Below are positions 1-21,405 of a DNA stretch of 21,991 nucleotides, one piece after another. This DNA comes from a virus. The notes under the pieces were generated by a model, which was not told the origin of the DNA, did not search any database, and worked only from the letters and a program-made list of their open reading frames with translations. The stretch lies in the IMG/VR virus record IMGVR_UViG_3300035459_000057, positions 1 to 21,991 of that record, one strand, 5' to 3'. A program made the position numbers and the translations under genes. How positions within the stretch are numbered: the stretch's first letter is position 1; every line of letters starts with the position of its first letter.

Positions 1-1554
1 GATACCAGCTAATGATCCAGTTCCTCCAATGTGCATAGCTGTCCAAGTATTCAACCATGCGGAAGGAGCGCCACGAACGGCGACATTCCCACCCGTCAGC
101 CGCATGATCTCTGCGTTGTTGGAGCCGAGGATGAGGGGGTAGTTGTCGTAGGTAAAAATGCGCAACCCGTTGGAGTTGCCGTTGGAAACAAGTACCCCGC
201 TATCAGGCTGAAAAAGCAACCCAGCAACGGGAGTAAAGGAATGATTGAATTGCTCCATCGCCGTAACCTGAGAACCATAGTAGCACGAAAAAGCGCTACG
301 AGCAGCAGTGCCAGCGGTATCATTCCGCGAAACAACCTCGGTAAGTCCATTCTGCGAAACCATTATTGATAACGGCAGGTTCGCCGTCGCCACATTCGCC
401 CCGATATAGGCACCGCTCGCATTGAAATTCATCGCCCCAATCAGCCCCGTCGCCCCGTTGACCTTGCCAGTCGAGGTGATACCGATGGAGTCTATGCGCC
501 CCCACTCGGCTGATACCCCGCCGAAAATAAATGGCGCTCCCCCTGCCGATTGAAACGCAAGCCCAATAGTCGAATTCGTTGATATTTTTGCGAGGCTATT
601 ATTTGATAGGCCGTATATCGTTCCGCCAAAATTTGAACCATACACAACGCTGGCCAAATACTTTGATGCGTCATTCATTGCCTGAAACTGCGCATATCCG
701 GTATTGGTCGTATGGGACAATTCAACCGTAGAAACTCCACCTGACCCCTGCGCAACGGTAATCTTCCCACCAGCACCGTCTATTGAAACAGTACCTCCGC
801 CAATAATTCCGGTAGATGCTAACTTCGTGAGTTGAATAGCAGCAGCATTATCCACATCCGCATTAACTAGAAGCGAGGTTGTCAGCTTCCCGGTTGATAC
901 AGCAACATGCACAAGACCTGAAGCAGATGCAAGGTACGAAGAGTACAACGAGCCATCCCCATTCATCGATAGCAATGACGCCCCATTTGTCTGCCAATCA
1001 TACGCCTTATCGGCGGCTACAAGTCCGGTTATTCCAAGTCCAGATTTCTTCCCGGTATTGAATATCATGGCAGCATATGAGGCGCTTGATACAGCTTCAA
1101 ATGCGTCAAGTTGCAAAGCACCATACAAACCTGACACGTCATTAGACGCACCGCGAATGCGAAGACCGCCAGCACTTCTAGCCGTTCCGGTATTGATCGA
1201 ATCAATGAGGGCGAACGCACTTGTCGGAAGCAGGTTAGTCATACCATGCGCGAGGCTGGGCGTTCTCAGCAGCATCATCGCCGCGTTATTCGTCGCATCG
1301 CCGTAGAGCAGGTCTACCGTCGCCACCGTTGAGACAGGGGCGAGTCCGAGGCCGACCGCGCCAGCCGAATGTCTCAGCGGTGAATCACCCCAGGTTGTCG
1401 ATGTTAGGGCGGCAGCGAGGGTGCCGGGGGTGACACCGTGGGCGAGGGGGGAGCTACCGTTGACACCAGCCAACAGCGCGGCAAGATCGGCGTTCATCTT
1501 GGCGGCATCGTTGCAGCCAACATTCGTGAGAGGGTAGTATGGGAGAGTGGCCAT
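1..1554 (-). CDS. Tail fibre protein, 3' part outside window
   Basis: An open frame of 518 codons starts with ATG at 1554 and continues without a stop to the window edge, so the C-terminus is missing. The protein is rich in Gly, Ser, Thr, Ala and Asn with short beta-type stretches, as in phage fibres. It starts MATLPYYPLTNVGC and has an early AHGVTPGTLAAAL segment. Near the edge (about residues 485-518) it has GNVAVRGAPSAW followed by AMHIGGTGSLAG. In many phage fibres this type of stretch comes just before a C-terminal trimerisation or self-cleaving chaperone domain (peptidase S74 or similar), so such a domain may lie just outside. The ATG follows the stop of the homospermidine synthase gene by one base and has no good ribosome binding site, which suggests translational coupling. 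Its last place after the ejection genes fits a receptor-binding fibre. The exact fibre class is uncertain. Confidence 0.75.
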   Translation of the reverse strand, partial: MATLPYYPLTNVGCNDAAKMNADLAALLAGVNGSSPLAHGVTPGTLAAALTSTTWGDSPLRHSAGAVGLGLAPVSTVATVDLLYGDATNNAAMMLLRTPSLAHGMTNLLPTSAFALIDSINTGTARSAGGLRIRGASNDVSGLYGALQLDAFEAVSSASYAAMIFNTGKKSGLGITGLVAADKAYDWQTNGASLLSMNGDGSLYSSYLASASGLVHVAVSTGKLTTSLLVNADVDNAAAIQLTKLASTGIIGGGTVSIDGAGGKITVAQGSGGVSTVELSHTTNTGYAQFQAMNDASKYLASVVYGSNFGGTIYGLSNNSLAKISTNSTIGLAFQSAGGAPFIFGGVSAEWGRIDSIGITSTGKVNGATGLIGAMNFNASGAYIGANVATANLPLSIMVSQNGLTEVVSRNDTAGTAARSAFSCYYGSQVTAMEQFNHSFTPVAGLLFQPDSGVLVSNGNSNGLRIFTYDNYPLILGSNNAEIMRLTGGNVAVRGAPSAWLNTWTAMHIGGTGSLAGI

Positions 1555-1555
1555 A

Positions 1556-3181
1556 TCAGTTTTGGTCTAGGAAATTAGAGAACGACCAAATATTTTTGGT
1601 GTCGATTTTCAGGTCTTTTCGCTCTGGAAAGTATACCGTATTATCCTTCACCGGCGACCACTCAAACTCTTTGCTGATGAAGTTTCCAAGATAGGGTTTC
1701 GCTACTTTCAAAATATACTCGTGGTCGATATCTTCAGGGTCAACAATTCCAGCCGTAGGGTTTTCCAACATCCAGCAAATTGCCGACACCACGCCGATAG
1801 CGACCTGTACAGTAGTGGCGTTCTGTAGCGGCACGAGGTTGCACGCATCCTCGATGTTCAACGACGAACCACACCACCACACGTGCTTATCATCGTAACC
1901 GCCTATCATGCACCCCAGAGTGTCGGCCCCGCCGCTGATGTCGTTGTCATAGGCGATACGCTGCCTTGGCAGGCACTTGTAGTCATTTGCCCTGAGTTCC
2001 TGAAGCGAGGCCATTGTAGAGTCACACGCCAAATAGCAATAGTACACCGTTGGCCGGTATTTGCCATCCTTGGTGGTCAGGAAATCGCTGATCGTGTACG
2101 CCTCACCGTGCCGAATGAGTACGCCGATAATCTGCCCGTTTTGGCTGATCGGTTCGGTCTTATCTTCGCCGGTAGCCTGCGTTTTCTTCATCTCGTCCGT
2201 GGGCGGCACAAATCCCCGCACTCGTGTGTTCATCCCCATCTGATGCAAGAATATCTGATTCTTGGGGCCAACGGCGGGCACAGTGGCACCCATCGGTGGT
2301 TCGCCCTCGTGAGTACCCCACCCAAGCTCTGCCGGGCTTGTAGCCTCTTCCAGGAGGCCCAAACATGACCACGTACCGATAAACTCCCCCGGTTCCCGTG
2401 GTTGCAGCACAATCTGGGTGTCGCGTTCGGTGTCCAGCACAACTTTTACGCCCAAATCCCGCGCCAATTCGGCAAAATCACCGTTGAACTTCTTTTTCTT
2501 GGCCTTTGCCAAGTCCATGAGCCCCTTTTTGGCGAATGTCGAGATAAGGCCGGGGTTGGCACCCATTTCGAGGCAGGCGGTGGTCGCATTTTTCGGCCAG
2601 CCCTTGAGTAGTGCGTTGATCTCCATGCGGCGAGCGTACAGGCTCTTGTCGTAGGCGCTGCGCTTGTCAAAACCGCCGTCTGTGAAGTCCCATTCCTCGA
2701 TGCTGGTATTGATGTACATCACCTTGTTGTCGCGGCACCACTTGAGTATCTCGATGCACGATATGTCATACGCGAGGTCGATGCACAAGTCACCTTCCGA
2801 TAGGTGAGAGTTCATCACCTCTTCAAAGTTCTCTTTGACAATCTGAATCTGCTCGAATGTCGCGCCTTCGTCTATCCAGTTTTGCAGCACTTCGGTGCGG
2901 TCGAGCATGTCGATGAGCGTCACCTGCGCCATGTTCAGGTTAAGGTGCGATATTAGTACCGGGAACATGCACTCGAATACGCTGCCGGTGCCGATGCACA
3001 CCACACGGTTAGCAAAGTCATGCTGCTTAATGGCAACAGGCGCGGGCTGCGCGGGCAACTTCGGCTCTACCTCGCCCTCGTGTCCGTTCGGCACGATCTC
3101 GGGCGGCTGCGGGTTCACCGGCTGCTTGTTCTTCGTGGCAAGCGCCATCATTACGTCAATGCCCTTGGGCTGTTTGTTCAT
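1556..3181 (-). CDS. hss: Homospermidine synthase
   Basis: The 541-residue protein matches bacterial homospermidine synthase (saccharopine-dehydrogenase-like Rossmann family) over its length. The known enzyme makes homospermidine from putrescine, or putrescine plus spermidine, using NAD as a recycled redox cofactor in the cytoplasm. Visible marks: NAD-binding CIGTGSVFE (62-70) with acidic D91 after the second strand, EMGANPG (205-211), ERDTQ (252-256), TWSCLGLLEE (270-279), PAELGWGTHE (283-292), NTRVRGF (318-324), YRPTVYYCYLAC (375-386) and a PYLG segment near 496. By recall of the Blastochloris viridis enzyme, Glu162, Asn209, Glu252, Trp271 and Glu279 match its Glu117, Asn162, Glu210, Trp229 and Glu237, so the active site looks intact. 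The first 55 or so residues are a Pro-rich extension absent from that enzyme. The ATG overlaps the upstream stop (ATGA) with AAGG seven bases before it. An inner start at Met11 or Met12 is possible. Confidence 0.93.
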   Translation of the reverse strand: MNKQPKGIDVMMALATKNKQPVNPQPPEIVPNGHEGEVEPKLPAQPAPVAIKQHDFANRVVCIGTGSVFECMFPVLISHLNLNMAQVTLIDMLDRTEVLQNWIDEGATFEQIQIVKENFEEVMNSHLSEGDLCIDLAYDISCIEILKWCRDNKVMYINTSIEEWDFTDGGFDKRSAYDKSLYARRMEINALLKGWPKNATTACLEMGANPGLISTFAKKGLMDLAKAKKKKFNGDFAELARDLGVKVVLDTERDTQIVLQPREPGEFIGTWSCLGLLEEATSPAELGWGTHEGEPPMGATVPAVGPKNQIFLHQMGMNTRVRGFVPPTDEMKKTQATGEDKTEPISQNGQIIGVLIRHGEAYTISDFLTTKDGKYRPTVYYCYLACDSTMASLQELRANDYKCLPRQRIAYDNDISGGADTLGCMIGGYDDKHVWWCGSSLNIEDACNLVPLQNATTVQVAIGVVSAICWMLENPTAGIVDPEDIDHEYILKVAKPYLGNFISKEFEWSPVKDNTVYFPERKDLKIDTKNIWSFSNFLDQN

Positions 3182-5490
3182 TTGGATGCCTTAGATAATT
3201 CAGAAATTATTGCGGGCAGCGCCGATGCTTCGGCGGAAGTCGATCCGAATCCTTGCTTGAATTTATCCTTAATTGATCCACCATATTCTGGCACTGATTT
3301 TAGAGCCATGCCGCCAGCCTTTTGCAACATTCCTGAACCGAATCCCATGCCAGCCAGTGCCCCGGTAATCAGCCCAGCCGTTTGCTCTTCGGGCGTGTCG
3401 CCAGACAATGCGAACCCGGCCCCGGCCCCGGCAACACCACCGGCCACCGTCTTTTCGAGTGGGTTGAATCCACGCTTGACCAAGAAGCGGGCCATGAGGT
3501 TCACGCCATACGCACCACTGGCAGCAGCACCGACAGCGGCGGGCAACGCGCTTATCAGGCCTTGTCCGGCAGCATGGCCGCCGACACCGCCAGCGATAGC
3601 CTCACCAGCGGGAATGAGCAGGCTCCAAACAGCCGCACCCGTTCCGCTCGGGTTGGTATCGGTAATCAGATTGAACTTGTCGGCCCGTGCCCGGCGCAAC
3701 CCGCGCACCACATCGACAAGCTGATTGGCCTTGTCATCGCCCAAGATCATTCTCAGCGCCCGGCCATTGTACTGCTTGATGTTGTTGGCGAGCTTGTTCA
3801 CCGATATATCGCCGCTGGAATTGAGTATCGAGCGGTCGATAAGCCGCGCCATGAGTCCGGTGCGAAGATTCTGCCGTGTGTCTTCATCCATGAGCTTCAT
3901 CACGACCGACGTTTTGCTCATGTTCGACGGCTTCAACAGGTTGTCGAGAGGTTTGGTCACATCGACAAATCCGGCCTCATCGACACCCTTGTTGTACCCG
4001 CTTAGCTTGGCCGTCACATCGCGGATGTCTTTCGTTGCGGCAAAGAAGCGGTTCACATCTTTCAACTGCTTCACGCCATCTTCACCGGCAATCTTGGCGA
4101 TGTGCGCAACTTCGGCATCAACGAGAGTGCCGTAAAGCGCCTTGTACGCCTCGCGGTCGTTATGGCCCAGCTTGTACGCATCCGGCCCAAAAGCCAAATC
4201 GCCGACCTGAGTTTTGATCGTGCGCAACAGGCTGTATTTATCGGGCGTTTTTGCAATGCCTATATTGCTAACCTGTGCAACAATATCCCCGATACTCTGA
4301 GCGACGGAAGATGTGACGCCGGTCGGCATCTCCTTGCCAACAACAAAGCCGCTTTCATCGAAGATCGGAAACTTGGCATTGATGCGCTTCTTGGCCTCTT
4401 GGCCTACCGCGTAGCCGTCGATTTCAAGCTTGTTCCCGGCCTTGACAATCGTTCCGTACATATCGCGGAATCCCGTATCGAGCTTTTGCACCGTGCCCTG
4501 CAATCCGGCCTGAATCTTCGCCGCTAAGTCTTCGGGTGCAATTTGACCCAATTTCCCGCCAGAAATGCTCTCCAATGCGGTTTTTACCGCATCCGACGCC
4601 TGCCGCTTTTGAGCTGTCATTACGCCAACGCCGCCCGGTAACGTCTGCGCCACTTTCTCGACCGCGCCAAGGGCCGCAGGAGCCACGTTGCCGCCAAGGG
4701 GTGTCAATGCCTGGCTGCGCGTCAAAGGTATGCCAGAACGAGCCGCAGCCGCGTTCTCTGCCTCCATAGCGGGCGTTGCACCCTTGCCTGCCAGAACACG
4801 GGCCGCAATGTCACCGGCAGACCTTGGCTTGGTTACCGCGCTTTTGACCAAATCGAGCAGCGTTTTTGGTTGAGTGGTTGCCTTGGCTGCGGCGGTCAGC
4901 ACTTCCGGCGCTGTTTTGGTAGCCGTCCGTTTGGCAACGTCGGCAAGATAGGCCGCGCCCTTGGTTTCAGCCCCGCCAACGGGCAAAACAGACAGAATAT
5001 CCATCAGGTCAGCTTTAAGTTCATCGGGCTTATCGTATCCAAGGCCGGGAGCGATGGATTCTACACCCTTGCCTATCTGGTCAGTTACAATGCCGACGCC
5101 CTCTTTGATGGCCGGAACCTTGGCAAGCCCGCCAACGACCTTTTTAGCCAAATTACCAGCCCCGGTGCCCGCTGCCTTGACGCCGGGTATCTTCCCGGCC
5201 AAACCACCGGCATCCTTCAAAATCTGCATCAGGAAGTCAACGCCGCCACCGGCCACCTGCGCCCCGGTGCGGATGAGGGGCCGCGCAAGTTCAGTATTCG
5301 GGCCCGCCCATGCGTCGGCTACGGTCTGTGCGCGGCGGTCGAACTTGTTGTAAAGATCGTCCGTTGGTTGTGGCTGGTTGGCTGTTCCGATAGTTGCCGG
5401 AATACCGGGAGTATCATAGACGATGCGGCCACTCGATGCAGCCGGGGATACCGATGGCGTAACATTCGGGGTATCGTAGACTATTGCCAT
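3178..5490 (-). CDS. Large internal virion (DNA ejection) protein
   Basis: A 770-residue protein, Ala/Gly-rich and mainly helical. The N-terminus repeats IVYDTP at residues 3-8 and 23-28. Residues 80-150 contain Gly-rich helices. Around 252-305 a segment of the type SGIPLTRSQALTPLGG, then LPGGVGVMTAQKRQ, resembles a stretch I know from large phage injection proteins. Residues 620-730 hold Gly/Ala-rich, membrane-compatible segments (around 619-662 and 681-722) with GxxxG-like spacing. In podoviruses the internal virion proteins leave the particle and form a trans-envelope channel; the position between the nozzle gene and the fibre fits that job. Start: ATG at 5490 with GGGAGG eight bases upstream, overlapping the previous gene by 10 bases. 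I see no lysozyme or transglycosylase motif. The virion role is inferred from position and composition. Confidence 0.6.
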   Translation of the reverse strand: MAIVYDTPNVTPSVSPAASSGRIVYDTPGIPATIGTANQPQPTDDLYNKFDRRAQTVADAWAGPNTELARPLIRTGAQVAGGGVDFLMQILKDAGGLAGKIPGVKAAGTGAGNLAKKVVGGLAKVPAIKEGVGIVTDQIGKGVESIAPGLGYDKPDELKADLMDILSVLPVGGAETKGAAYLADVAKRTATKTAPEVLTAAAKATTQPKTLLDLVKSAVTKPRSAGDIAARVLAGKGATPAMEAENAAAARSGIPLTRSQALTPLGGNVAPAALGAVEKVAQTLPGGVGVMTAQKRQASDAVKTALESISGGKLGQIAPEDLAAKIQAGLQGTVQKLDTGFRDMYGTIVKAGNKLEIDGYAVGQEAKKRINAKFPIFDESGFVVGKEMPTGVTSSVAQSIGDIVAQVSNIGIAKTPDKYSLLRTIKTQVGDLAFGPDAYKLGHNDREAYKALYGTLVDAEVAHIAKIAGEDGVKQLKDVNRFFAATKDIRDVTAKLSGYNKGVDEAGFVDVTKPLDNLLKPSNMSKTSVVMKLMDEDTRQNLRTGLMARLIDRSILNSSGDISVNKLANNIKQYNGRALRMILGDDKANQLVDVVRGLRRARADKFNLITDTNPSGTGAAVWSLLIPAGEAIAGGVGGHAAGQGLISALPAAVGAAASGAYGVNLMARFLVKRGFNPLEKTVAGGVAGAGAGFALSGDTPEEQTAGLITGALAGMGFGSGMLQKAGGMALKSVPEYGGSIKDKFKQGFGSTSAEASALPAIISELSKASK

Positions 5491-12156: not shown

Positions 12157-12804
12157 TTACACCATCCCGAAATCTGAATCGGGGTAACTGTCTATGTCCT
12201 TGACAAACGCAATTGAATCATTCTGCTTGAACTTGGCCCACTCCGTTTCTGCCTTCACAAGGTTTGCATTCCACTGTGCGGTATAGAACTGCGTTCGCCC
12301 AATGTCCTGATCCTTGGCATAGATGCGCCACAAGGCGTAGTCAATCAGGTACGCATGAAACAGGTCGGGAATGGTGAATACCGTTGACGCGCTTGTCAGA
12401 TACGCGGGTGTCTGAATGCCGTAGATGCGGATAGTCTGCGCGGCGGTCGGCGTCGGGTACAGCCCAATGTTGGAACCGAAGCGGTAGTAGTACCAGGCGT
12501 TGCCGGTGCTCTGCTGCCCGTAGTACACATCCATCGCCTCGATGCCGCGAAAGTCGATCTTCTTCAGGCGGTAATTGTACCAGATGATCCGCGAGATGTA
12601 TGTAAACGACGAAGGGACAACATACTCCTGTTGTCCTATCACGGTGACAAGCGAGGTATCAACTACTTCGGCGCATTGAATCTTTTTGTTGAGTTCACAC
12701 TCGGCAAGCCATAAGTAGTTGTATACCTCATCAGCCGATACGAAGTTTCCGCTTGCATCGTTAAACTGATTGGTTACTGTTTGATACGCCTGCGCTGGTG
12801 TCAA
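12157..12804 (-). CDS. Head-tail adaptor (P22 gp4 / tail tubular protein A-like)
   Basis: A 215-residue protein. The N-terminal helical part starts TPAQAYQTVTNQFNDASG and has VYNYLWLAECELNKKI (27-42). A beta segment follows with VTVIGQQEYVVPSSFTYISRI, then Tyr/Trp-rich GNAWYYYRFGSNIGLYPTPT and a C-terminal helical pair. This is the standard form of phage adaptors that bind the portal and extend the tail. The neighbouring nozzle gene supports this. The start is TTG at 12804: AAGGTGG lies six bases upstream, the N-terminal helix is needed, and the next Met is far inside (around residue 90). The gene therefore overlaps the zinc-finger gene by 44 bases, the largest overlap in the window. Confidence 0.75.
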   Translation of the reverse strand: MTPAQAYQTVTNQFNDASGNFVSADEVYNYLWLAECELNKKIQCAEVVDTSLVTVIGQQEYVVPSSFTYISRIIWYNYRLKKIDFRGIEAMDVYYGQQSTGNAWYYYRFGSNIGLYPTPTAAQTIRIYGIQTPAYLTSASTVFTIPDLFHAYLIDYALWRIYAKDQDIGRTQFYTAQWNANLVKAETEWAKFKQNDSIAFVKDIDSYPDSDFGMV

Positions 12805-13888: not shown

Positions 13889-15034
13889 TTAGTAAATGAA
13901 CCTGATCTGGTTTGTGTCCTTTGCAATGTTCTCCATCTCCGAATGACAGCAGTACATGTGCAAGAAGTCTTCGAGAAGCATCTGCGTAATCTGCCGCATG
14001 TTGCCCTCGTTGTACGCGCCGAGAATACCGCCCTCTGTGCAATTCACAAGAATAGGCGGCTTGCCGAGGTGCCCGCCGAGAGCGAAATACTCGAAGATGT
14101 TCTTGAAGTTGATGTACGACGGCCACGCATACACGCGATTGCCCCACACATCCGTACACGCCTGCACGCCTGCGAACTTCGTATCATAAGGCGAGTCAAA
14201 AGGATGGAACTTCCTCGTATAGTCGAACGCGAAATCGGCCCCGATAAATGCAATCGGCATACATCCGAGAATTGCCCGCGCATGGTACAAACAAGCTCCG
14301 AGCGTATTCCCGCCGACATTGTAGGCGAGGATAAACTTCGTGATCTTATTGTATGCGTCGATATATTCCTTGTTCGGCACCATCGCGTTGAACCACAGTA
14401 TGCGGCCCTTCCACTTGTCAATCAGCTTCGGGTTGCCGCACACCGATGTAACGAGCGTCTTATCCGCCGACCTGTCCCAATACCACTGTTCCGGCTTGCT
14501 TCCGCCCTGGTACATCTCGGATACCGTGATTTCCCCGGCGTCAAGGTTGACATAGCTGTCAACATCAATGCCGAGGTCTTCAAAGTACCCGAAGTTGTGC
14601 AGGCACGAAACAAGCGGAATTTCTTTCGGCTTGTTCAACAGGTGATGCGCATTTCTCTTGAGCGACGGGCCACTACCGGCCACGATTGCCGGGTGGTACT
14701 CGTACTTCTTGAAGTCGTTCATCACTGAGTTTGCGAGGAAGTCGTACTTTGCCGCGTTCGTCGCTACGTGATCCAGCCACACCGGCGACCAGCTTGCAAC
14801 CGTTACGCCGTCGTTGCGGCACGCATTGGTATACAACTGTTCGGGCGGGCAGGGCGGGCCGTCGATAGAGCCCTGATACTGCAACACCATTGGCACCGAT
14901 CCGGCGAGCTTCGCCTTGAGAGCATCGCGCTCTTCGCGTAGCCCAGCAATAACAACGGCGGGATCACCATCCGTTGCGGTCGGTTGAGAAATAACCTGTT
15001 CAGTAGCCGTAGAGTCCAAAGTACCCTCGCTCAT
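13889..15034 (-). CDS. DUF115 / MptE-like (MAF_flag10) family protein
   Basis: A 381-residue protein. After a short acidic coiled-coil N-terminus (22-45), the Rossmann-like core shows AIVAGSGPSLKRN (116-128), SCLHNFGYFEDLGIDVD (143-159), NVGGNTLGACLYHARAILG (239-257), IAFIGADFAF (261-270) and NCTEGGILGAY (331-341). These are marks of the DUF115 family. That family includes archaeal 6-hydroxymethylpterin diphosphokinase MptE and the bacterial motility accessory factors, which attach nonulosonic sugars to flagellin. I chose ATG at 15034 because AAGGGGGGAG lies directly upstream; a TTG at 15070 lacks a site. The gene sits between the decoration protein and small beta proteins. A glycosyltransferase-type role on virion proteins is possible; a pterin role is less supported by context. 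Confidence 0.78.
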   Translation of the reverse strand: MSEGTLDSTATEQVISQPTATDGDPAVVIAGLREERDALKAKLAGSVPMVLQYQGSIDGPPCPPEQLYTNACRNDGVTVASWSPVWLDHVATNAAKYDFLANSVMNDFKKYEYHPAIVAGSGPSLKRNAHHLLNKPKEIPLVSCLHNFGYFEDLGIDVDSYVNLDAGEITVSEMYQGGSKPEQWYWDRSADKTLVTSVCGNPKLIDKWKGRILWFNAMVPNKEYIDAYNKITKFILAYNVGGNTLGACLYHARAILGCMPIAFIGADFAFDYTRKFHPFDSPYDTKFAGVQACTDVWGNRVYAWPSYINFKNIFEYFALGGHLGKPPILVNCTEGGILGAYNEGNMRQITQMLLEDFLHMYCCHSEMENIAKDTNQIRFIY

Positions 15035-15076
15035 CACTCCCCCCTTGTGAAAAGAAAACGGGGTCAGCAACGACCG

Positions 15077-15698: not shown

Positions 15699-16622
15699 TT
15701 ACGCAATCGCTGAGAATTTACCGCACATACGCGGGTTGTCGCAAAGCAGCTGGCCCGAGAAGTAAATCTTGGCGCTCGATGCGTTCTGGTTGATCGGCTT
15801 CTGGAACGGCTCGAACCGGAAATTCTCATCCTGGTGAACGAAGAGGTGCAGATAGTCTTCGTTCAGCATGAACAGGTTGCTCGCCGGAACGTGGTTGTCA
15901 ACGATGAACGGTACACCGTTGAACATCAGGTTCGTGAAGCCGCCCTTGGCGGTCTCTTCGTCCTGGAACCGCTGCTGCGGCTGAAGGAGCGCGTAGTAAT
16001 CGTTCTGAGTCGCCTGGGTTCCGACAAGCAGCGTCGGCTTGTCGTTGCCAACCACGCACTGGCCCCAAAGGGTCTGCATGGCGGGGATGGTCAGGAGCGT
16101 CGTGGTCGAATCGACCTGGCTGTTGAGCCAAGTGTATGTCGAACTGTTCACGCCGCCGTAGGTGCGGCTGGTGCCGACCGCGAGGCGCAACCCGATGAGG
16201 GCATTGGGCGTGGTGCCGAGGTTGTACAGCCCGGTGCCGAGCGTGTCGGCAAGGGTCTTTTCGGCCAGCTGAACCTTCGCCTTGACGAAGTTCACGATTG
16301 CGGCCTTGCCGGAGTTCATGAGTTCGTCTTTGCGGGCGATGGTGATGTTGGCATAGGCAAACGCCCAATCCAACACGATGCTGTCGATCTGGTCGTTGGA
16401 GGTAACGCTGAGAGTGTCGCTCCCACCGTTATACCAGCCTGCCGCCGAAGTCACAGCATAGGCCACGGGGGCCACAAGCTGCGTTCCACCGTCGATGAGC
16501 GTGAGCCACTTTTTGCGGGCACGCATGAGCAGGGGGTTCGACGTGAAGATGTTGTCGATGAGCTTCGGCACGAAATACTTGTGCGTGATTGATCCGAGTT
16601 CGCCGTAATTGATTACCGCCAT
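15699..16622 (-). CDS. Major capsid protein (HK97 fold)
   Basis: A 307-residue protein starting MAVINYGELGSITHKYFVPKL and ending DNPRMCGKFSAIA. Features that fit HK97-fold capsids of short-tailed phages: an N-terminal arm, a long helix (about residues 99-125: ELMNSGKAAIVNFVKAKVQLAEKT), then the P-domain and A-domain pattern LNSQVDSTTTLLTIPAMQTLW, and a C-terminal beta strand with FNGVPFIVDNHVP. It follows the scaffold gene by 19 bases. The ATG at 16622 has AAGGAG seven bases upstream; the longer frame to 16676 would overlap the scaffold gene and lacks a site. There is no sign of an N-terminal prohead protease target, consistent with a separate scaffold. Confidence 0.88.
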   Translation of the reverse strand: MAVINYGELGSITHKYFVPKLIDNIFTSNPLLMRARKKWLTLIDGGTQLVAPVAYAVTSAAGWYNGGSDTLSVTSNDQIDSIVLDWAFAYANITIARKDELMNSGKAAIVNFVKAKVQLAEKTLADTLGTGLYNLGTTPNALIGLRLAVGTSRTYGGVNSSTYTWLNSQVDSTTTLLTIPAMQTLWGQCVVGNDKPTLLVGTQATQNDYYALLQPQQRFQDEETAKGGFTNLMFNGVPFIVDNHVPASNLFMLNEDYLHLFVHQDENFRFEPFQKPINQNASSAKIYFSGQLLCDNPRMCGKFSAIA

Positions 16623-16641
16623 GATAAAACTCCTTGTTGTG

Positions 16642-17532
16642 TTACGCTCCCATTTCCTTGATGGCGGCTTCGGCAATCTGACTGTAGTTCATGCCTGAAA
16701 TATCGGGGCCGTCTGCCGACCTCGGTATGACGTGTCCGTTGGATACCACGCCTCGCCGCTTCTCTTCCTCAATCCTCTTGGCTTCATCTCTGAGCGCATC
16801 GGCCTTGGAGTTCTCCGCAACGCTTCCGAACATATAGAGCTTGTACGCATCTTCTAAATCCGTAAGACCCTTGTCGAAAGCCGTCTTGAGTATCCTCCAC
16901 ATCAGCGTGTGACCGCCTTCGTCTTCCGTTGACCAGTCGTGCTTTGCATACTTGGTCTGCAAATCGCTTTGCTCTTTGGCGAGGGACTCATCGGCCCGTT
17001 GATTGGCTATCTGAGTCTGAAACTCGTCAAATTGCGTCGCCTTTTGCTGGAACGGGGCAATCGCCTGCTGAATGAGTGGCTGAATCTGCTTGAGAAGGTC
17101 GCCATTGGCGTCAATGGCCGGTTGATCTCCGACCTTTTGAGCCGCGCCTAATCCGCTAACCGTATCCTGGTAGAGCTTCATGATCTGGGCCTTGAAACCA
17201 GGATTGGCGTCGAAAGCCTCTGCCAGCTTTTGATACTGGCCGGTTTTCTCTTCCAACTGCTTCAATGCCGCCTCGCGGGTATTGAGTTCAGCCGCCCTCT
17301 GAGAGTAGCCGTACCCCTGCTGCGCCCAATTAACGAGTTGTTCGCGGGTAGGAGGCACTATCTCCTTGTCGCGGAACTTCATTTTGAATTGGGAACCATC
17401 CCACGCACTCGCCGCCGCACCATCAGAGCCATTAGCCGGTTGTTCGACTGTGCCCGCATCCGTAGATGCTGCCGTTGCCTCGGGATCGGCTACCGCCGCT
17501 GCTGCTGCTTCGTCGTATGAAGAATCTGCCAT
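16642..17532 (-). CDS. Capsid scaffolding protein
   Basis: A 296-residue acidic, helical protein. Residues 1-45 are Ala/Asp/Ser-rich and disordered. Residues 50-75 contain KMKFRDKEIVPPTREQLVNWAQQGYGYSQRA in parts, a motif I associate with phage scaffolds. Residues 75-210 are Gln/Lys/Glu-rich coiled coil. The C-terminus has a basic KRIEEEKRRG run and a short amphipathic helix (ISGMNYSQIAEAAIKEMGA region), the part of scaffolds that often contacts the capsid protein. The gene lies directly upstream of the major capsid gene, the usual order. ATG at 17532 has AAGGGGAG nine bases before it. Confidence 0.82.
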   Translation of the reverse strand: MADSSYDEAAAAAVADPEATAASTDAGTVEQPANGSDGAAASAWDGSQFKMKFRDKEIVPPTREQLVNWAQQGYGYSQRAAELNTREAALKQLEEKTGQYQKLAEAFDANPGFKAQIMKLYQDTVSGLGAAQKVGDQPAIDANGDLLKQIQPLIQQAIAPFQQKATQFDEFQTQIANQRADESLAKEQSDLQTKYAKHDWSTEDEGGHTLMWRILKTAFDKGLTDLEDAYKLYMFGSVAENSKADALRDEAKRIEEEKRRGVVSNGHVIPRSADGPDISGMNYSQIAEAAIKEMGA

Positions 17533-18630: not shown

Positions 18631-20547
18631 CTATGCTTGTGGTGTCGGTGCGGGTGGTTGCTGTGCGGCCTGTGCCGCTTCTGCGGCCTTCTGCATGCGC
18701 TGCCTGACCTTTTCCTTGTTCGGCCAGTCAACGGCGTTCAAAACCTCTTCCTGGTCGATCACTTGCTTGTCGAATAGCGTCATGGCGAGGTTGGCCCGCT
18801 TGTCCTTGGCGTATGGCAGGCTTGTGCCGCTGGTTACAGACAGGTCGAATAGCCCGCGCGATGGCTTGCCAACCGTCCAAGCGTTCTCGGGCACATGCTT
18901 CACCGTTGTCGTTCCGTCTTCGTTCAGCGCCTCGACAGCGTTGTATTTAAGCTGGTGGTACACGTAGCCGTCTGCCGTTTTGTCGATGAAAAACTCGAAG
19001 AATTGCGGGTTTGCGCCCTGCCCGGTGATCTTCACAATTCGCGGTAGCCGGTAGTTCTGCAACATCGTGGCGATAACCAGATAACCAAGCTGAGTCAAGC
19101 TGCATTCGAGGTTCCTGTCTTTGAGCCTAATGCGCGTCTGGCTGGCTTCCTGAAGCGTCTGGATGGCACTGTTGGCCGTCACGCCGGTAGGCTTGCGGCC
19201 CCGTGTCTCATCGTGTACGCCCGTCTCGTAGTCGGCAAGCTGGAATAGCAATTGGTAGAGTCGGAACATTGAGCCCGGCATCTCGGGCGGCGGCTTGCGG
19301 TCGATCTCGCCCGGCCCGGTCTTGACGATGATCTGCCCCACGCCGTTGGTGATCATCGAGGCATCAACGCCGGTCGAACTGTCGATAATCCACGGTGTAT
19401 TATTTACGAGAATGCCGTTGTCCATGATGACGGCCAGAATGCGGTTTATCATGTCCTGCGCACGGATGACGCTCTCATTGATCTCGCCATCGCCGTAGAA
19501 CTTGCGCTGCCGTACATGGTCAACGAGGCGCACGAATGGCTTTTTACCATCGTCGCGGGGGCTTGGCTTGGATTGCAGGAGTAGCTTCTGACTCGGGATG
19601 ATCGTAATGACCTTGCCATTGGGATTCTTGAGCTTTTTACCCATCAACGGCATACCGTCAGGACCGGTCTTGGCCTTGCCGTCCTTGTCGGTCTCCTGAA
19701 AGTCCTCAATCGTGTCATCGGTCGCCCAGCATTCGGCTATCAGCACATCGCCGGTCATTGCCCCATGCTTTTCGACGTCTGTGAGGTTCCGCATGGTAGT
19801 TTTCTGCGTGGTGAGCGCAATGGGTACGATGTCGCCGGAATACGCCTTGTTCTTGTTGCTCCCGTATTCCTGGTCAAGCTCTTTGCCGCTGCCGTCGGGG
19901 TGTATGCGGTCGGCAACTTCGGGGAATGCCCGCTTCAGGTCACCCACGGCCTTGCTCATCAGGTGAACCGCCCACGGGCACGTCTCATCGAAGTCCAGAG
20001 TGCCCTTCTTGGTCAGCACGGTCTTGGGGTCACAGATGGTCACATCAACATCACCAATCCCGCACTTCTTTTCCTCGTTCCAAATGACCTTGGCTATGCC
20101 AATCGGGTACATGAGCGCGTCTTTGACCCACACGGGGATCTTGAAATCCATGTTTTCGGTTTCCCACCACGAGCGGTTCACATCCGTCATCGTGTTGGCA
20201 AAATCGAAGTCATCGGGGTTACGGCCAGAATAGTTGAAGCCGGGGCTGGTGTCGGTCATTATCGGCAGGATGGTCTCGACGGTCGGGCGGCACACGTTGG
20301 CAACCGGCGAACTGCGCCACTTGGGGCGGGAATTGGGCCACTGCTTGGCATCGTAATACTGTTCGGCCTTGTCCCAATCCTTCTCGCGCTCTTGCAGGTG
20401 CTTCTTGCCCTCTTCGATGCACCGGAGCACGAAATCAACGTCTTTTACGTCCTGTTCTGACTCTTGCTGAGATTGTGCTATCGGCGGGGCGGATATGTTG
20501 TCACTGGCAGAAAGATTATTCGAGGGCAATTCAAGGGCTGCGGCCAT
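18631..20547 (-). CDS. Portal protein
   Basis: A 638-residue protein of the P22-type portal class. After a disordered N-terminus (1-30) it has the typical EREKDWDKAEQYYDAKQWP (53-71), then RPTVETILPIMTDTSPGF (87-104), a Trp-rich helical segment and DVDVTICDPKTVLTKKG (166-182) in the wing region. Near the middle come VRQRKFYGDGEINESVIRAQ and MINRILAVIMDNGIL, then ETGVHDETRGRKPTGVTANS (clip and stem side). The C-terminus is a long helix ending in a Gln/Ala/Pro run. It forms the dodecameric DNA gate at one capsid vertex. A candidate promoter precedes it, and ATG at 20547 has CGGAG nine bases upstream. The terminase would be expected before this window. Confidence 0.85.
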   Translation of the reverse strand: MAAALELPSNNLSASDNISAPPIAQSQQESEQDVKDVDFVLRCIEEGKKHLQEREKDWDKAEQYYDAKQWPNSRPKWRSSPVANVCRPTVETILPIMTDTSPGFNYSGRNPDDFDFANTMTDVNRSWWETENMDFKIPVWVKDALMYPIGIAKVIWNEEKKCGIGDVDVTICDPKTVLTKKGTLDFDETCPWAVHLMSKAVGDLKRAFPEVADRIHPDGSGKELDQEYGSNKNKAYSGDIVPIALTTQKTTMRNLTDVEKHGAMTGDVLIAECWATDDTIEDFQETDKDGKAKTGPDGMPLMGKKLKNPNGKVITIIPSQKLLLQSKPSPRDDGKKPFVRLVDHVRQRKFYGDGEINESVIRAQDMINRILAVIMDNGILVNNTPWIIDSSTGVDASMITNGVGQIIVKTGPGEIDRKPPPEMPGSMFRLYQLLFQLADYETGVHDETRGRKPTGVTANSAIQTLQEASQTRIRLKDRNLECSLTQLGYLVIATMLQNYRLPRIVKITGQGANPQFFEFFIDKTADGYVYHQLKYNAVEALNEDGTTTVKHVPENAWTVGKPSRGLFDLSVTSGTSLPYAKDKRANLAMTLFDKQVIDQEEVLNAVDWPNKEKVRQRMQKAAEAAQAAQQPPAPTPQA

Positions 20548-20600: not shown

Positions 20601-20851
20601 CACCATACCGCGTCTCTGATCTTCTCAAGCAGGTCGTCGGGCAGTTCGGTTATCTCGCGGATGTCACACCCTTTCTTGATGGCGATTACCGGCGTCTGGC
20701 CGAAGCACTTGGCTGGTAACCCGGCGAGAAGCTGCCCGAGGTCGTTGCACTCCTTCTTGTCCTTGGCCGTTATCACGATCACCGACCGCCAAGACGGGCG
20801 CAGGCGACGGATTTTCCACACAAAGATGAGTTTAAACAGGAATTTGAGCAT
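20600..20851 (-). CDS. Small basic hypothetical protein
   Basis: An 83-residue protein. The N-terminus is hydrophobic then strongly basic (MLKFLFKLIFVWKIRRLRPSW), followed by a small alpha/beta-like stretch (SVIVITAKDKKECNDLGQLL, then TPVIAIKKGCD) and an acidic C-terminal helix ending KIRDAVW. I chose ATG at 20851: GGAGG lies seven bases upstream and the start overlaps the upstream stop as TAATG. The TTG at 20875 would put the site inside the gene. The N-terminus might bind a membrane. No family recognised. Confidence 0.55.
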   Translation of the reverse strand: MLKFLFKLIFVWKIRRLRPSWRSVIVITAKDKKECNDLGQLLAGLPAKCFGQTPVIAIKKGCDIREITELPDDLLEKIRDAVW

Positions 20852-21405
20852 TATTCTGCCTCCAAGTCCACCCAAAGTTTCTCGAAATCTCCGCGATTAA
20901 CCTTCCACATCACGTATGGTGCCGGATGGGTTGCCGCAACGTGAATATTTTTGAGAACAATGTCGATGTCAGACAACCCCCAAGAATCATCGTCGGAACA
21001 ATCGGAGTTGATCGAATCCCGCTCAAGCACAACGCCACTCATCGGGGGTATCAAAAAGCCCATGCAAGAGAAAACTCCCTGAAGTCTTGACAAAACACTC
21101 TTGCCGCCGACAAAATGACACAGAGTAATTACCCCTACAGGCTTTCCGGCTATGCGAGGATCGGCTTCAAGGTGTGTAAAGTCTTCGATGAATTTCTGCA
21201 TTGGTGATCCGCACGAATCCCAATAGGTTCCGGTAATGAGAAGGTACGCATCGGCGGCGCACAAGTCGCGCTCTAATGGCATTTTTTCGGAGAGATATAC
21301 CACTTCGGTTTCCTCAAATGGCGATAAGACTGTTATTGCCTTAATAATCTCGCCACAATTCTTTGTCCTGCCGTGAATGCCGCCCTCGATAATTAATAGC
21401 TTCAT
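20851..21405 (-). CDS. Flavodoxin-fold protein, NAD(P)H-dependent FMN reductase-like
   Basis: A 184-residue protein with flavodoxin-like marks: first strand and phosphate loop MKLLIIEGGIHGRTKNCGEI (1-20), an acidic connection, then LLITGTYWDSCGSPMQKF (55-72), where small residues would contact the flavin, and VGVITLCHFVGGKSVLSRLQG (90-110). This order fits the NADPH-dependent FMN reductase group, which uses FMN to reduce small molecules or partners. The C-terminal third (125-184) has an Asp/Ser stretch and is less typical. ATG at 21405 has AGGGGGAAT directly upstream. A redox function for phage growth or defence is unknown; a diverged, non-catalytic role is possible. Confidence 0.65.
   Translation of the reverse strand: MKLLIIEGGIHGRTKNCGEIIKAITVLSPFEETEVVYLSEKMPLERDLCAADAYLLITGTYWDSCGSPMQKFIEDFTHLEADPRIAGKPVGVITLCHFVGGKSVLSRLQGVFSCMGFLIPPMSGVVLERDSINSDCSDDDSWGLSDIDIVLKNIHVAATHPAPYVMWKVNRGDFEKLWVDLEAE

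Follow-up and report, generated by a model that had tools for sequence, protein, structure and literature searches.

Predicted homospermidine synthases of a phage-specific clade lie among the virion genes of unrelated tailed phages

The homospermidine synthase gene and its neighbors

The window analyzed here, a virus fragment of 21,991 bases (IMG/VR record), carries a complete open reading frame with an ATG start whose product is almost certainly a homospermidine synthase (Hss) (Table 1). Its start overlaps the stop of the upstream gene as ATGA, and its own stop (1556) and the following ATG (1554) are a single base apart. The initial annotation had described this tight spacing between an ejection gene and a tail fiber gene; the spacing stands, whereas neither neighbor found a match in a PHROG search. 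The names “ejection” and “tail fiber” derive from gene position and from distant relatives in two phages with P22-type portals (L002 and L010), and need care. The upstream protein does contain a glycine-zipper stretch, with a Pfam score below the cut-off, and the relatives of the tail-fiber-like protein are large tail-module proteins. The relative of the 492-residue protein in L010 occupies an equivalent position. The adaptor, portal and major head genes are on the same strand as Hss, the relatives of the major head protein being those of Myxococcus phages Mx9 and Mx8. Judged from these assignments, the module around Hss is structural. A scan for promoters and terminators gave no excess above shuffled sequences.

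Two further features of these modules were observed. The ejection-like proteins each start with a short, phage-specific tandem repeat (IVYDTP; SEYDALLSVDT; EDITDLASPV; MTDAEM-like). The slot taken in the window by an MptE-like gene is filled in L002 and L010 by an unrelated-looking phrog_1574 protein, a family annotated without function.

Table 1. Features of the Hss locus and of related phage contigs (window coordinates unless a contig is named)
Feature	Position	Strand	Basis or remark
Tail-fiber-like protein, runs off the window	1..1554	(-)	26-43% identity over 114-141 aa to L002/L010
Homospermidine synthase (Hss), 541 aa	1556..3181	(-)	Pfam, PDB match, Foldseek, eight catalytic residues
Hss arm, residues 25-59	3005..3109	(-)	conserved in clade; motif NGxxGExEPQLPAxPAPxA
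Hss leader, residues 1-24	3110..3181	(-)	variable, differs between phage types; modeled disordered, pLDDT ~30
Ejection-like protein, 770 aa	3178..5490	(-)	27% over 597 aa to L002 protein of the same module
Ejection-module protein, 492 aa	5481..6959	(-)	33% over 258 aa to L010 538-aa protein
SU10-type adaptor protein	12157..12804	(-)	PF24175, E 2.8e-22
MptE-like (6-hydroxymethylpterin diphosphokinase-like) protein	13889..15070	(-)	between head and adaptor genes
Major head protein	15699..16676	(-)	phrog_9953, E 3.8e-54
P22/SU10-type portal protein	18631..20547	(-)	PF16510, E 2.6e-27; phrog_156, E 1.7e-46
Flavodoxin-like (FMN-reductase-like) protein	20851..21405	(-)	64% to L011:12875-13420; Pfam FMN_red just below cut-off
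Repeat-bearing ejection-like proteins	window 3178..5490; L002:5991-8036; L061:2097-6806; L010:6318-8099	(-) in window	short tandem repeat at start
MKIEAA-leader genes, jumbo phage L067	G214:C1:7116-13370, 23147, 32530	forward	DNA pattern

The protein is predicted to be a working Hss

Both Pfam domains of the family scored above the cut-off: Sacchrp_dh_NADP (residues 60-202, E 2.8e-19) and Sacchrp_dh_C (residues 207-501, E 4.1e-20). Among PDB sequences, 2ph5, the Hss of Legionella, was the top match (E 1.5e-86). Every one of the 14 matches listed was an Hss, including those of Legionella, Pseudomonas and Blastochloris, with no carboxyspermidine or saccharopine dehydrogenase among them. An AlphaFold2 model built on a 7-row alignment was unusable (pLDDT 43), and a 16-row alignment gave a model with pLDDT 85.6 and pTM 0.88. 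Compared with the PDB by Foldseek, this model had Hss as its top 21 matches (target TM 0.90-0.93, 32-34% identity), the next being a carboxyspermidine dehydrogenase (TM 0.71, 12% identity). Carboxyspermidine dehydrogenase (target TM 0.64-0.71) and saccharopine dehydrogenase (0.42-0.47) were both ruled out against the values reached by Hss, and a chance reading frame was ruled out by the length of 541 residues, the two Pfam domains and purifying selection.

The catalytic residues of the Blastochloris viridis enzyme were named by Krossa et al. (PMC4725965), and each has an identical counterpart in the window: Asn162 (N209), Glu210 (E252), Trp229 (W271), Glu237 (E279), His296 (H358), Glu298 (E360), Tyr323 (Y381) and Asp361 (D420). 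The initial annotation had proposed a full-length Hss with its cofactor loop and had staked this proposal in part on the alignment of Glu210, Trp229 and Glu237; as all mapped residues proved identical, it passes this test. The same eight residues and the cofactor loop are found in every member of the clade described below, where pN is 0.13-0.25 with synonymous sites saturated, arguing strongly for purifying selection. Taken at the level of sequence, the data strongly support the enzyme identity and an intact active site, and we infer that the window Hss is enzymatically active. The long divergence from bacterial Hss (~33-46% identity) and the novel N-terminal arm might suggest instead a repurposed protein that makes no homospermidine and serves as a structural or NAD-binding part or acts on another substrate. 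Given the conserved catalytic residues and loop and the selection on the gene, we consider this highly improbable.

A phage-specific clade of Hss

Scans of viral contigs (IMG/VR) uncovered 13 further members of the clade (L002, L010, L061, L062, L011, L012, L013, L004-L008 and L014), 55-74% identical to the window Hss where directly compared with it and 55-80% identical within the clade as a whole. In a tree of 38 sequences, 13 of them rows of this clade, the clade was monophyletic at 100/100, a result that strongly supports its distinctness. Sequences placed apart from it included L068 (taken to be Ralstonia phage RSL1), those of freshwater T4-like phages, and those of jumbo phages, Motura among them, so membership of the window Hss in the RSL1 or Motura lineage was ruled out. 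Planctomycetota sequences and one from a Legionella adelaidensis plasmid share with the clade a wider group (100/99), within which it is nested. A tree had been proposed earlier as the way to find the donor lineage, and it does provide this grouping; a donor of planctomycete type is no more than a lead, because the sampling of bacterial Hss was narrow, covering Planctomycetota and plasmids. Recent transfer from a host was ruled out, as the G+C content of Hss agrees with that of each carrying phage and one genome scan with narrow patterns found no prophage carrying the clade.

Hss genes were also frequent in large phage contigs (L067-L083; 34-39% identity to the L011 query), where they fall in at least two branches outside the clade. 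In two of these jumbo phages (L078 and L081), Gln replaces the residue equivalent to B. viridis Glu117, the “ionic slide” for the substrate, and all eight catalytic residues are retained.

Hss stays in the virion module of otherwise unrelated phages

The gene neighborhoods of the relatives revealed a recurrent placement. In all 14 clade contigs, the neighbors of Hss are ejection, portal/MuF/scaffold or tail genes, in about four gene arrangements, in agreement with the earlier description of a gene embedded in a late structural operon. Both P22-type podoviruses and MuF-type phages carry the clade, and their capsid genes are either ~25% alike or show no detectable kinship. In L002 and L010, Hss is downstream of ejection-like and tailspike genes, and in L061 and L062, also with a P22-type portal, it stands between a giant ejection-like protein and a giant tail-like protein; L012 is arranged like these two, its upstream gene being present on the contig by its C-terminal end only. 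In L004-L007, L013 and L014, Hss is flanked by MuF on one side and scaffold/major head genes on the other; several of these contigs stop shortly beyond Hss. In L011 it is flanked by portal and MuF. The L008 contig starts inside Hss and runs on into scaffold and major head genes. In one of the MuF-type contigs (L004:1211-3607), the large terminase has an intein-like insertion in the P-loop (after HGK) whose first residue is not the usual cysteine or serine.

The Hss proteins of L011 and L013 are 62% identical while their structural proteins are only about 25-28% identical, and the flavodoxin-like protein of L011 is the sole other match that the window has in the MuF phages. Since Hss is kept while the other genes diverge or are unrelated, transfer of the gene from phage to phage is probable, with its place in the virion module retained. 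That quite different viruses carry close relatives in a similar place also suggests that Hss is probably tied to particle building. The pattern is strong but short of proof, as the 14 placements amount to only about four independent ones, and some relatives have intergenic gaps around Hss without any overlap.

The flavodoxin-like proteins of the window and L011 are 64% identical, above their Hss (59%), and these two phages have no further detectable gene in common. An internally deleted flavodoxin-like remnant stands directly before Hss in L006 (~5144-5240). With its occurrence limited to the window, L011 and this remnant, the flavodoxin-like protein is not a general companion of Hss.

Hss could instead be a cargo (moron) gene that occupies a permissive site within the late operon and shifts host polyamines generally, independently of the particle. 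Many kinds of phage polyamine enzymes are indeed encoded outside structural modules (PMC9992855): Hss adjoins glutathionylspermidine synthase in Motura, and in T4-like phages it is near MazG-like and other non-structural genes. The flavodoxin-like gene in the same late-module slot in L011, with its remnant in L006, would also fit a permissive site. Such a reading is nevertheless improbable in view of the placement of every clade member in a virion module, in phages otherwise sharing almost no gene.

An N-terminal arm and phage-specific leaders

Full-length clade members, with lengths counted from the likeliest start, have ~50-90 residues ahead of the Rossmann loop; the corresponding stretch is 9-25 residues long in Motura and in most of the bacterial enzymes compared. 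The enzyme-proximal part, or arm, is conserved in the clade and was not found in the bacterial Hss compared, while the outer part varies with phage type. The arm was mostly modeled with confidence by AlphaFold2, with a block mean pLDDT of 68 at residues 21-30 and 89-93 thereafter. A DNA pattern for NGxxGExEPQLP recovered only three already known clade members and no other proteins, an HMM of the leader of the MuF phages matched no other protein, and the window leader resembled no neighboring protein. The outer leader of the L002 and L010 Hss, MPKLSDI, is nearest to co-encoded ejection-module proteins starting MPSIGQID and MPTLSQID, with best similarity scores that none of 368 background N-termini reached; phmmer gave no support for this similarity.

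An unrelated jumbo phage, L067 (record G214), has a leader common to several proteins, and its Hss begins MKIEAAKRLKA. Searched as a DNA pattern, this leader gave 11 hits in the 189,689-base record, all of them in the forward direction, and none in the reversed control. The leader is thus on Hss and ten other genes. Most of these copies are clustered close to a head-tail connector gene, and beyond it lies a tail sheath gene. In T4, diverse internal head proteins have one common capsid targeting sequence (PMC3012670), and by this analogy the common leader makes the packaging of some phage Hss plausible.

These N-terminal features make packaging of the enzyme itself, beyond its product, a serious option, one that the initial annotation had not brought up. 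Hss would then be internal to the virion and ejected with the DNA, converting host putrescine at the start of the next infection, before phage transcription, for instance as a means of blunting an alarm based on putrescine or of priming translation. The ejection-like, MuF, portal and scaffold neighbors, the clade-specific arm with its leader varying by phage type, the leader similarities in L002 and L010 and the jumbo-phage leader are all in line with this, as is the reported role of putrescine as a danger signal hampering phage in P. aeruginosa, according to work cited in PMC11898732. On the other side are the negative phmmer result, a window leader unlike any neighbor, and the position of the conserved arm, modeled within the folded enzyme, where it may simply stabilize Hss. 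We regard ejection followed by early conversion as rather unlikely, and the broader proposal that Hss is a portable virion effector, swapped between unrelated phages, targeted to the head by phage-type-specific leaders and rewiring host polyamines before phage expression, as similarly doubtful. Packaging or ejection of the enzyme, taken by itself, is a tentative suggestion at best slightly stronger than these.

A proposed late supply of homospermidine for particle assembly

Packaged polyamines have long been known for some phages and are generally taken to be whatever the host supplies. Polyamines are present in the virions of several phages and aid DNA compaction (PMC7226272; PMC3012670). Ornithine and arginine decarboxylase and AdoMetDC families were not found in nine phage records, some of them fragments, so the putrescine would be host-derived.

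The explanation we favor, with moderate confidence, is a working Hss made late in infection and using host putrescine, its activity coupled to particle assembly or maturation. The initial annotation had proposed late synthesis of homospermidine to help condense DNA, to ride with it in the capsid or to shift the host from its normal polyamine, and this proposal is supported in part. An NAD-dependent Hss of a phage-specific clade, mobile between unrelated tailed phages, would join two host putrescines to form homospermidine. Because the gene is retained in the virion module, the enzyme would be made late, alongside head, ejection and tail proteins, and its late co-expression with the structural genes is very probable. 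Homospermidine would be supplied while heads fill and particles mature, as a counter-ion for packaged DNA and for late translation, and the enzyme itself may also enter the particle via its N-terminal region. The simplest mechanism is that host putrescine is converted late, providing homospermidine to the head as it fills; whether the product has a particle-linked role at all seems to us evenly balanced. Against this explanation are the small number of independent placements and the gapped arrangements noted above, and generic polyamines are enough for other phages. The degrees of confidence expressed in this work are judgements and were not computed.

With a mobile Hss clade in virion modules, the choice of genome counter-ion, or a metabolic enzyme borne in the virion, would become open to direct test, and the arm motif and leader offer a sequence handle for finding more particle-linked enzymes.

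Comparison with known systems

Phage Hss as a class was already known, as the initial annotation had noted: the enzyme is reported to be functional in RSL1, and Achromobacter phage Motura, chloroviruses and giant viruses also encode one (PMC9992855). The “homospermidine synthase” of phage JG004 was set aside as a precedent since it rests on an E value of 0.32. Our literature search retrieved no report of an Hss clade tied to virion modules, nor of its N-terminal arm. The RSL1 and Motura enzymes are likewise phage-encoded, but the window Hss is on a separate branch (~30-38% identity) and, unlike them, has the arm and a virion-gene slot of this kind. The bacterial enzymes of B. viridis (4PLP), L. 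pneumophila (2PH5) and P. aeruginosa (6Y87) have the same fold, Pfam domains and catalytic residues at ~33% identity; the window protein differs from them by the arm and leader, an insert near residues 328-348, and its setting among phage virion genes. Carboxy(nor)spermidine dehydrogenase is of the same superfamily fold, with TM of only about 0.64-0.71 and 11-15% identity.

The capsid targeting sequence of the T4 internal proteins provides an analogy only. The jumbo-phage leader is common to several proteins including Hss, whereas the window leader is not common to its neighbors. Finally, those MuF head proteins that bear effector domains (PMC5576092) likewise place an activity beside portal and MuF genes, but Hss, a metabolic enzyme, has a gene of its own and no fusion to MuF.
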